A DNA stretch of 40,601 nt from Phycisphaerae bacterium (lineage in GTDB: Bacteria > Planctomycetota > Phycisphaerae > Phycisphaerales > UBA1924). The stretch is from NCBI GenBank assembly GCA_016795005.1, contig JAEUIV010000119.1, positions 1 through 40,601 on the forward strand. Reading direction: 5' to 3'. The position numbers and the translations under genes were made by a program. Below, in pieces: positions 31,435 to 32,972 of the stretch (position 1 is the stretch's first letter; the number at the start of each line of letters is the position of its first letter). The notes beneath the pieces are model-generated. The model had not been told where the DNA came from and searched no databases. It saw nothing but the letters and a program-made list of their open reading frames with translations.

Positions 31435-31770
31435 TCATCGCCTGGAGCCTGGGGCGCCCTTGGCCTGTTCGAAGAGTTCGGGGAGTCGGGCGACCTGGTA
31501 CAGCTCGATTGATTTCTGGTTCTGCACGCCGTAGATGGAGATGGTTTCGCGCGTGATGTCGAGGACGGCGAGGAACTCTTCTCCGCCGCCGGCGTCGGCG
31601 GTGAGGAGGCGCACCTGTCCGGCTTCGGCGATGTTGCCGGCGTAGGCGGGTTCGGGTGTGCCGAGGCGTCCGGCTTGGACGGTCAGCATGGCGGCGATGA
31701 TGAAGGCGCTCGCCCAGAGTGCGGCGGCGGAGGGGTCAAGGCGACGGTGTTGGGTCGTGGTGGATGACAT
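31435..31770 (-). CDS. Small membrane-anchored protein, third gene of a mini-operon
   Basis: The 111-residue protein has one membrane helix near the N-terminus (about 16-34, AAALWASAFIIAAMLTVQAG) and an extracytoplasmic beta-rich part (FLAVLDITRETISIYGVQNQKSIELYQVARLPELFEQA). Family is unknown. The ATG is only 2 nt after the stop of the preceding gene, with GGGGG 9 nt upstream inside that gene. The two products share a phrase type: a short sensor-like strand with IYGV/IYVYD and a Gln-rich stretch, hinting at a common origin. Confidence 0.72.
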   Translation of the reverse strand: MSSTTTQHRRLDPSAAALWASAFIIAAMLTVQAGRLGTPEPAYAGNIAEAGQVRLLTADAGGGEEFLAVLDITRETISIYGVQNQKSIELYQVARLPELFEQAKGAPGSRR

Positions 31771-31772
31771 GT

Positions 31773-32072
31773 TCAGCGTCCCCCTTTCTGAGCGTGTTCC
31801 GCGTCGGCGGCGAGGTCGCGGTGGCCGAGGGTCTGGAGCATTTTGCGGCTGCGGTCCCAGCGGAGGGCGAGCATTTCCTGATTCGCGGTGTCGTAGACGT
31901 AGATGGCGGCTTCGGCGACGCCCTGGATCCGGCCGTCCACGATGGCGTACTGGCCGGTGGCGCGTTTGGGTCGGGTCTGCGCGTTGGCGCCCGGCGCGAG
32001 GGTGACCAGGGCGAGGAGGCCCATGAGGAGGGCGTTGAGGGCGATCAGCCCTGTGTGCGTTCGGCGTGGCAT
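31773..32072 (-). CDS. Small exported protein, second gene of a mini-operon
   Basis: The 99-residue product has a signal peptide (THTGLIALNALLMGLLALVT, cleavage near ANAQ). The mature domain is ATGQYAIVDGRIQGVAEAAI followed by VYDTANQEMLALRWDRSRKML, which resembles a short beta-propeller-like strand set. No known family was recognised. The ATG at 32072 is fixed by AGGAG 8 nt upstream. It sits 31 nt after the first gene and is nearly fused to the third. Confidence 0.72.
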   Translation of the reverse strand: MPRRTHTGLIALNALLMGLLALVTLAPGANAQTRPKRATGQYAIVDGRIQGVAEAAIYVYDTANQEMLALRWDRSRKMLQTLGHRDLAADAEHAQKGGR

Positions 32073-32103
32073 GAGACTGACTCCTGCGTGTGGTTGTGTC
32101 GGC

Positions 32104-32364
32104 TCAGTCCTGGTGCGTTCGTCCGCTGGGAAGGACGGCGAGCGCGACGGCGGCGCCGGCGAGGGCGAAGGTGAGGAGGTATGGGACAGCGATGGCGGGT
32201 TTTTCCGGTGCGGCCGGTGCGGGCGGTCGGACATCCTTTGGGGCCGCCTTGCTCGGGGCGGCGTCGTCGTCGCCGATCTGCTTCATTCCCTGTCGCGCGA
32301 GGGCCGGGAGCGAGAGAGTCAGCCAGAGCGTCGCGGCGAGCGCGGTGCGAGTGCGGATAGTCAT
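32104..32364 (-). CDS. Small protein with signal peptide and C-terminal membrane helix, first gene of a mini-operon
   Basis: The 86-residue product has a signal peptide (RTALAATLWLTLSLPALA, cleavage near ARQ), a proline/alanine-rich linker (AAPKDVRPPAPAAPEKPA) and a C-terminal membrane helix (YLLTFALAGAAVALAVL). Most of the mature chain would be outside the cytoplasm. The ATG at 32364 is preceded by a TATCGT box 6 nt upstream and, 17 nt further, TTGAGC, so transcription probably begins right at the start codon. It heads the unit 32364 to 31435. Confidence 0.7.
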   Translation of the reverse strand: MTIRTRTALAATLWLTLSLPALARQGMKQIGDDDAAPSKAAPKDVRPPAPAAPEKPAIAVPYLLTFALAGAAVALAVLPSGRTHQD

Positions 32365-32414: not shown

Positions 32415-32972
32415 TCATCGTGCGGCTTCGAGGAGCGGCTGGCTGAGGCGTTCGAAGTCGGTTGCGGCGAGGTGGACGGTGCGCCACCTGGGGCTTCGGA
32501 CGCGCATGTGCTCGAAGTAGGCGTTGGCGCGGACGACGCGGATGGCGTACCAGCGTCCCCGGTCCTCGAACATTTCCTGGAAGAGTGCGTCGGGGGGCTG
32601 CCCCTCGCACCAGTAGATGAAGAGGAAGGCTCCCTCGAACCCCCGGCCGAAGAGTCGCTCCCATTGTCGCATGGAATCGACATCGTCCTGAGTGACCCAG
32701 GATTCGAGGCGTCCGCGGGCGAGGGGCGAGGTGAGGTTTCGCGGGACTCTTCGGCCCTTGACGTCGATGAGGAAGTTGGCGCGGCCGCCGTAGATCACGA
32801 AGTCGAAGGACTTGAGGGTGAGTTGTTCGGTTTTCGAATCGTTCTCGATTCGGAGCGGGGCGCGGTCGGGGAGAAGGGTCTTCTTTGCTTCATCCACGGC
32901 GATGTAGGGGATGCGTCGCGCGCGGAGGTAGTTCTCGAACGCTCGTTCGTAATGGTGCCTTCGCTGGGCCAC
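32415..32972 (-). CDS. HYExAFE family protein, putative PD-(D/E)XK-like fold
   Basis: The 185-residue protein carries the signature His-Tyr-Glu-x-Ala-Phe-Glu at residues 7-13 (HYERAFENYLRARRIPYIAV), which names a planctomycete family of unknown function. What can be seen beyond that is a nuclease-like core: SFDFVIY (Asp57), a short strand, then FLIDVKGRR (Asp70, Lys72), giving the D-x12-D-x-K spacing of PD-(D/E)XK enzymes. A helix with QDDVDSMRQWERLFG follows. The protein is cytosolic. A nucleic-acid role is inference from this motif only. The GTG start is 6 nt after a TACGCT box. It is transcribed just ahead of the small-protein operon, with separate signals. Confidence 0.8.
   Translation of the reverse strand: MAQRRHHYERAFENYLRARRIPYIAVDEAKKTLLPDRAPLRIENDSKTEQLTLKSFDFVIYGGRANFLIDVKGRRVPRNLTSPLARGRLESWVTQDDVDSMRQWERLFGRGFEGAFLFIYWCEGQPPDALFQEMFEDRGRWYAIRVVRANAYFEHMRVRSPRWRTVHLAATDFERLSQPLLEAAR

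Follow-up and report, generated by a model that had tools for sequence, protein, structure and literature searches.

Introduction

Archaeal Hjc, a Holliday junction resolvase with a PD-(D/E)XK fold, provides the closest described structures for the protein considered here. According to PMC1913061, the active site of Hjc in structure 1gef consists of E9 (motif I), D33 (motif II), E46 and K48 (motif III), and D61 (motif IV), and across the superfamily the carboxylates bind metal ions while the lysine positions the attacking water. VRR-Nuc domains have the Hjc fold as well, yet FAN1 cuts 5-prime flaps (PMC4103454). COG4636, the family treated in PMC551604, is different from HYExAFE, the family described below.

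To our knowledge, the recombination enzymes of planctomycetes have been little studied. HYExAFE (NCBIfam NF038001) was previously without an assigned function; the NCBIfam entry that was seen gives only a name, and a literature search for the family name and accession, with most subscription journals lying outside its scope, returned no mention of either. In this report a fold, an active site and a likely function are added to the family, and this new functional assignment sits inside the known PD-(D/E)XK superfamily. A family defined by its signature and present in 87 of 392 sampled genomes of its phylum thereby gains a predicted fold, a full set of candidate active-site residues and a possible nuclease role that can be put to the test.

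The HYExAFE gene and its conserved residues

The window is the whole stretch of DNA that was analyzed, 40,601 nucleotides long. Its HYExAFE open reading frame lies on the minus strand and runs from a GTG start at 32972 down to 32415, encoding 185 amino acids plus a stop. An earlier note on this DNA had placed the gene correctly at 32415-32972, leaving the minus strand unstated. The computed match to NF038001 covers residues 3-181 at 212.3 bits (E 3.8e-63), where the curated cut-off is 60 bits, and the window protein is a full-length member of the family. A Pfam search of the 185-residue protein gave no match, and a sequence search of solved structures returned nothing meaningfully related to it.

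Conservation was assessed over 122 distinct rows, made up of the window protein and 121 rows of relatives, out of 128 that were aligned. Six rows were removed, namely the short pieces L107, L109 and L069, a duplicate, and two rows that copy the window gene; one of the 87 carrier genomes (G204) is absent from the set. The gene and the codons of interest are as follows.

32415..32972, minus strand: HYExAFE gene, predicted Hjc-like PD-(D/E)XK nuclease (NF038001, E 3.8e-63)
32946..32948, minus strand: Glu9 codon, putative motif I metal ligand and the Glu of HYE, counterpart of Hjc E9 (E or D in 119/119 ungapped rows; N-terminal pairing of low confidence)
32811..32813, minus strand: Lys54 codon, invariant lysine specific to this family, three positions ahead of the motif II Asp (K in 122/122 rows)
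32802..32804, minus strand: Asp57 codon, motif II, paired by hhalign with Hjc D33 (D in 122/122 rows)
32763..32765, minus strand: Asp70 codon, motif III acid, paired by hhalign with Hjc E46 (D in 80 and E in 42 of 122 rows)
32757..32759, minus strand: Lys72 codon, predicted catalytic lysine of motif III, paired by hhalign with Hjc K48 (K in 122/122 rows)
32682..32684, minus strand: Asp97 codon, motif IV, paired by hhalign with Hjc D61 (D in 122/122 rows)
32478..32498, minus strand: C-terminal RSxxWxT signature of the family at residues 159-165 (R 112/121, S 120/121, W 121/121, T 120/121)

Seven residues, K54, D57, K72, G73, W92, D97 and F118, are invariant in all 122 rows. Among the 160 columns that hold at least 100 letters, only four (9, 57, 70 and 97) are acidic in at least 97% of rows, and because all four align with active-site carboxylates of Hjc, the conservation of the active site goes beyond chance. 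The first reading of this gene had singled out Asp57, Asp70 and Lys72 as residues that should be invariant. This holds for 57 and 72, while position 70 is either Asp or Glu and is acidic throughout the set. The same reading took Glu13 as an extra ligand in the first helix, a proposal that the alignment does not bear out: column 13 holds Glu in 99 of the 122 rows, with Ser in 14, Thr in 3, Lys in 2, a gap in 3 and one other residue, whereas column 9 holds Glu in 96, Asp in 23 and a gap in 3. The candidate for the extra ligand in helix 1 is, on the strength of the alignment, Glu9 and not Glu13. Asp97 of motif IV, which the earlier note overlooked, probably belongs to the candidate active site as well. 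If the nuclease reading is true, the HYE motif that gives the family its name would be the metal-binding motif I.

Predicted fold and structural neighbors

The fold was predicted with AlphaFold2 for the window protein aligned with 38 relatives (pLDDT 87.5, pTM 0.84), and again for a shorter homologue, L055, with 36 other rows (pLDDT 90.3, pTM 0.87). The window model places helices at residues 7-18, 26-33 and 95-108 and strands at 23-25, 58-61, 66-76 and 112-122; its first strand is short and is followed by the extra helix 26-33. This is the predicted core of the PD-(D/E)XK superfamily, in which D57 precedes one strand, residues 70 and 72 stand on the next, and D97 lies in the second core helix. 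The motif II Asp and the motif III (D/E)xK, both retained in every row, are thus found on the neighboring strands 58-61 and 66-76 of the model.

In a Foldseek search of the PDB, Hjc-type resolvases fill the first 13 rows for the window model and the first 15 for the L055 model. The best match to the window model has an E-value of 1.1e-4 and TM-scores of 0.73 (normalized to the Hjc chain) and 0.50 (normalized to the model), and the best match to the L055 model has an E-value of 2.5e-5. With VIA-align, A. fulgidus Hjc is the top entry for both models, at Z 12.6 for the window model (rmsd 2.8, all 121 residues of the 121-residue chain, 22% identity) and Z 12.4 for the L055 model (rmsd 3.2, 122 of 125 residues). 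The first 17 entries for the former and the first 15 for the latter are all Hjc, Hje or RecU/PrfA resolvases; on the two models the other Hjc and Hje structures score Z 9.2 to 10.4 and RecU scores 8.4 to 9.4. Scores below 8 are to be read as a possibly common arrangement, and every Hjc row exceeds 8. The restriction enzymes NhoI and Eco15I reach Z 8.7 and splicing endonucleases reach Z up to 7.4. On these models A. fulgidus Hjc alone stands well clear; below it, the weaker-scoring resolvases overlap in part with the top restriction enzymes. In a library of viral structures, named Holliday junction resolvases appear near the top with TM-scores of at most 0.56.

The PD-(D/E)XK reading that had been made from residue spacing is therefore borne out by the fold check on both models, for which PD-(D/E)XK resolvases are the top solved structures. 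The family almost certainly has this fold with its active site intact.

Sequence comparison with Hjc and other nucleases

A profile of 63 HYExAFE members was compared by hhalign with four Hjc sequences. At default settings hhalign pairs D57 with D33, D70 with E46, K72 with K48 and D97 with D61, and also W104 and F108 with Hjc F68 and F72. The pairing of E9 with E9 appears only when the confidence filter is lowered or off; the VIA alignment begins at residue 5 of the model against residue 5 of the Hjc chain and fits this register, which is of low confidence everywhere outside residues 56-112. The hhalign score of 24.2 compares with a mean of 11.1 (sd 1.9, max 17.6) over 100 column-shuffled Hjc alignments and with 12.4 for the reversed alignment, the shuffle being a lenient control because it also destroys the order of neighboring columns. 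Formal support is weak, at a probability of 11% and an E-value of 0.0028 with an Hjc profile of four sequences. The profile-profile comparison at default settings gave probabilities of 4.1% and 1.5% for two HYExAFE alignments, and hhalign in global mode gave a score of 12.2. P. furiosus Hjc, used as a query against phages and viral contigs, retrieved no Hjc relatives, and the Hjc profile therefore holds only four sequences.

The Pfam Hjc model PF01870, applied at E up to 1, matches none of the 63 HYExAFE members, and the window's own genome is also without a match. Three further residues that are invariant across the four Hjc sequences compared, R10, R25 and K81, are not answered in the family: Arg occupies column 10 in 48 of 119 rows and column 25 in 5 of 119, and no lysine lies near the position of K81. 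The missing Pfam match and the absence of these three residues argue against plain membership in Hjc, and they count, as does the weak profile-profile support, against the main reading given below. A search for canonical Hjc in planctomycetes with PF01870 gave matches in 47 of 392 genomes at E of at most 0.01, of which 16 are over the cut-off and most are partial and weak.

Other nuclease families give fainter signals. The RecU model PF03838, applied at E up to 1, finds none of the 63 members. Pfam SfsA matches 3 of 63 (best E 0.0054) and NERD 1 of 63 (E 0.27), too weakly for use; we take both to be PD-(D/E)XK families. PHROGs gave weak matches alone (best E 0.014), and the PADLOC model HEC-02B matches 4 of 63 weakly (best E 0.00098). 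In the other direction, the HYExAFE profile weakly matches four proteins of about 940 amino acids (E 3e-4 to 1e-3), over profile positions 40 to 108 at most. Two of these, L071 and L072, are BPTD_3080 restriction endonucleases (NF046055), and a C-terminal stretch in both reads RPDFLxRLKNGxMLxLEVKG, i.e., a PD and an ExK motif. L071 also matches a TnsA-like model, and similar weak matches to the HYExAFE profile are held by L073 and L074.

Distribution, inheritance and gene neighborhood

Of the 392 genomes sampled from the phylum of the window, 87 carry NF038001; none of 14 control genomes does. When the sample is confined to genomes with at least 90% completeness and at most 5% contamination, the count is 73 of 216. 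The gene is single copy, in that no genome has two NF038001 matches over the cut-off; an extra weak match in G357 is a fragment. In G157 a partial second HYExAFE-like match (C69:430-789) reaches 44.8 bits, below the cut-off, and is perhaps a diverged second copy. A scan of contigs from named genomes gave 39 loci, 37 of them labelled as Planctomycetota or Phycisphaer* lineages. Of the others, L053 is labelled Proteobacteria (MAG SZAS LIN-22), which would reflect either a mislabelled bin or a transfer, and L062 is labelled "uncultured bacterium".

A gene tree of 84 rows was built by a quick method, with nine rows outside any group left uncounted. The nine bacterial families taken together require 8 changes on this tree, which is the minimum possible, against a mean of 45.2 when the labels are shuffled; taken singly, f31, f1, f3 and f7 do not each form one clade. 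HYExAFE is inherited vertically. No HYExAFE match was found on 72,556 plasmid and 50,697 phage records, and among viral contigs two stretches fit a pattern, neither of which encodes a HYExAFE relative.

Of the 114 loci whose upstream flank measures 1.4 kb or more, 30 have a same-strand gene of the hisS cluster no more than 1.5 kb upstream of HYExAFE; these 30 span seven bacterial families, and the count is likely a lower bound because many flanks are short. Two members of this cluster exceed the cut-off for hisS and stay below the one for hisZ. The arrangement of hisS with HYExAFE, seen for example in L006, L011, L078 and L108, is possibly an old operon. Downstream of HYExAFE, a PSP1-domain gene recurs in 29 loci, and two short proteins without a Pfam match recur in 38 and 37 of 121 loci. 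In the window, two minus-strand open reading frames just downstream (31773-32234 and 31435-31770) resemble this short pair, as judged by eye. Other recurrent neighbors include ketoacyl synthase, MlaD, an ABC ATPase, signal peptidase, an alpha/beta hydrolase and bioB (eleven clusters of 30 being named). No recombination genes were seen among the neighbor representatives scanned. Similarly, the ten representatives of recurrent neighbors scanned by Pfam, from 30 clusters, include no methyltransferase or helicase.

The single copy, the tree that follows bacterial families, the frequent hisS gene upstream and the lack of plasmid or phage matches together indicate a housekeeping gene and not a restriction enzyme. 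HYExAFE has the profile of a stable chromosomal gene, not of a restriction or defense cassette.

Known resolvases in HYExAFE carriers

RuvC (PF02075) was found in 341 of the 392 genomes, in 79 of 87 carriers versus 262 of 305 non-carriers (Fisher p 0.28), and either RuvC or RusA is present in 85 of the 87 carriers. In the eight carriers without RuvC, the model TIGR00228 gave no match at its cut-off (two RuvC-positive relatives were searched alongside), RuvA is over its cut-off in 8/8 and RuvB in 7/8. Six of the eight belong to a single genus, g123 (G104, G120, G193, G237, G247 and G273). The other two are G282, which is 54% complete, and G388, in which an assembly gap is possible because its ruvA begins at base 221 of the contig. 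A RecU model found none in the seven carrier genomes tested.

HYExAFE was considered as a replacement for RuvC and rejected in this role, since the two show no anticorrelation over the 392 genomes, RuvC being present in 79 of 87 carriers, and the carrier genus that lacks RuvC has RusA. If HYExAFE is a resolvase, it acts beside another resolvase. As RuvC accompanies it in so many carriers, no junction resolvase is missing for it to supply, and this counts against the resolvase reading.

Two further observations concern RuvC itself. Genus g123 has RuvA in 6/6 genomes, RuvB in 6/6, RuvC at the cut-off in 0/6 and RusA in 6/6 (loci L192-L195), an apparent chromosomal swap of RuvC for RusA. Eight genomes of family f16 (G009, G040, G060, G079, G097, G113, G129 and G144) have neither a RuvC match nor HYExAFE.

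Proposed function

Taken together, these observations make it reasonably probable that HYExAFE is an Hjc-like, metal-dependent nuclease that acts on branched DNA. The parts of this account differ in firmness. Judging from the retained residues and the predicted fold, the protein is very probably an active nuclease. By analogy with its structural neighbors, DNA is the likely substrate in preference to RNA, and a preference for branched DNA has somewhat better than an even chance; the branched substrate is suggested because Hjc and RecU are the nearest folds. A shared fold does not establish a substrate.

From the invariance of the residues and the fold, we infer that Glu9, Asp57, Asp70 and probably Asp97 would be carboxylates that hold divalent metal ions, with Lys72 orienting the attacking water. 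Catalysis would then follow the superfamily mechanism. By the same analogy we infer that the protein might form an Hjc-like dimer and nick branched DNA such as four-way junctions. In the cell its chromosomal gene could serve repair or recombination, with the enzyme acting alongside RuvC or RusA. Should it indeed cut DNA junctions, these bacteria would hold an archaeal-type resolvase in addition to RuvC. A bolder proposal, offered tentatively and with the odds somewhat against it, is that many planctomycetes possess a further Holliday junction resolvase, of archaeal Hjc type, vertically inherited and chromosomal beside RuvABC, which would use DNA-binding residues of its own (Lys54 and RSxxWxT) and resolve junctions without RuvAB.

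An alternative possibility is that the protein is a PD-(D/E)XK nuclease acting on some other DNA structure, such as a flap, fork, nick, or damaged or end DNA, and thus serves general repair instead of junction resolution. The active-site and fold evidence would be identical, nearly every carrier already has RuvC or RusA, FAN1 offers a precedent for flap cutting with an Hjc fold, and HYExAFE does not conserve R10, R25 and K81 of Hjc. On the other hand, resolvases are the closest solved structures on both models, with A. fulgidus Hjc about 4 Z above the best restriction enzyme, the other Hjc structures lying only 0.5 to 2 above it. We regard this alternative as rather unlikely.

It is improbable that HYExAFE is instead a nuclease that processes RNA in connection with tRNA or translation; the hisS-cluster gene upstream, the PSP1-domain gene downstream and the scores of the splicing endonucleases would speak for such a role. 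The candidate active site is the full PD-(D/E)XK set, and splicing endonucleases use a different catalytic set, which counts against the idea; neighbors such as ketoacyl synthase, MlaD, signal peptidase and bioB suggest plain housekeeping DNA. Very improbable is an inactive protein that keeps the nuclease fold for binding or regulation, given that the five catalytic positions are retained in every ungapped row and that the free exchange of Asp and Glu at residue 70 keeps the charge. Least probable of all is a restriction or anti-phage defense nuclease, for which the same fold in HincII, NhoI and Eco15I at lower scores, the HEC-02B matches and the BPTD_3080 core relatives might speak, and against which stand the lack of a second match over the cut-off in any genome, the vertical tree, the plasmid and phage records without a match and the ten scanned neighbor representatives without a methyltransferase or helicase.

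Comparison with known systems

The Hjc-like nuclease reading can be set against three described groups. BPTD_3080 restriction endonucleases (NF046055) have in common with HYExAFE the core D and ExK stretch and differ by their length. RecU/PrfA (PF03838) forms the second-best structural group, with best Z-scores of 9.4 and 9.1 at 5 to 8% identity. Archaeal Hjc (PF01870; PDB 2wcw, 1gef, 1hh1) comes nearest, and the predicted HYExAFE fold spans the whole chain of A. fulgidus Hjc. All five active-site positions of Hjc have their counterparts in the family as E/D9, D57, D/E70, K72 and D97, and the Hjc aromatics F68 and F72 are answered by W104 (119/122) and mostly by F108 (98/120). Unlike Hjc, HYExAFE is without conserved R10, R25 and K81, has no PF01870 match and occurs in a bacterial host. 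It also carries features of its own: Lys54, which is invariant, a conserved segment resembling VDExRR, the C-terminal RSxxWxT and, around residues 36-49, a loop whose length varies.
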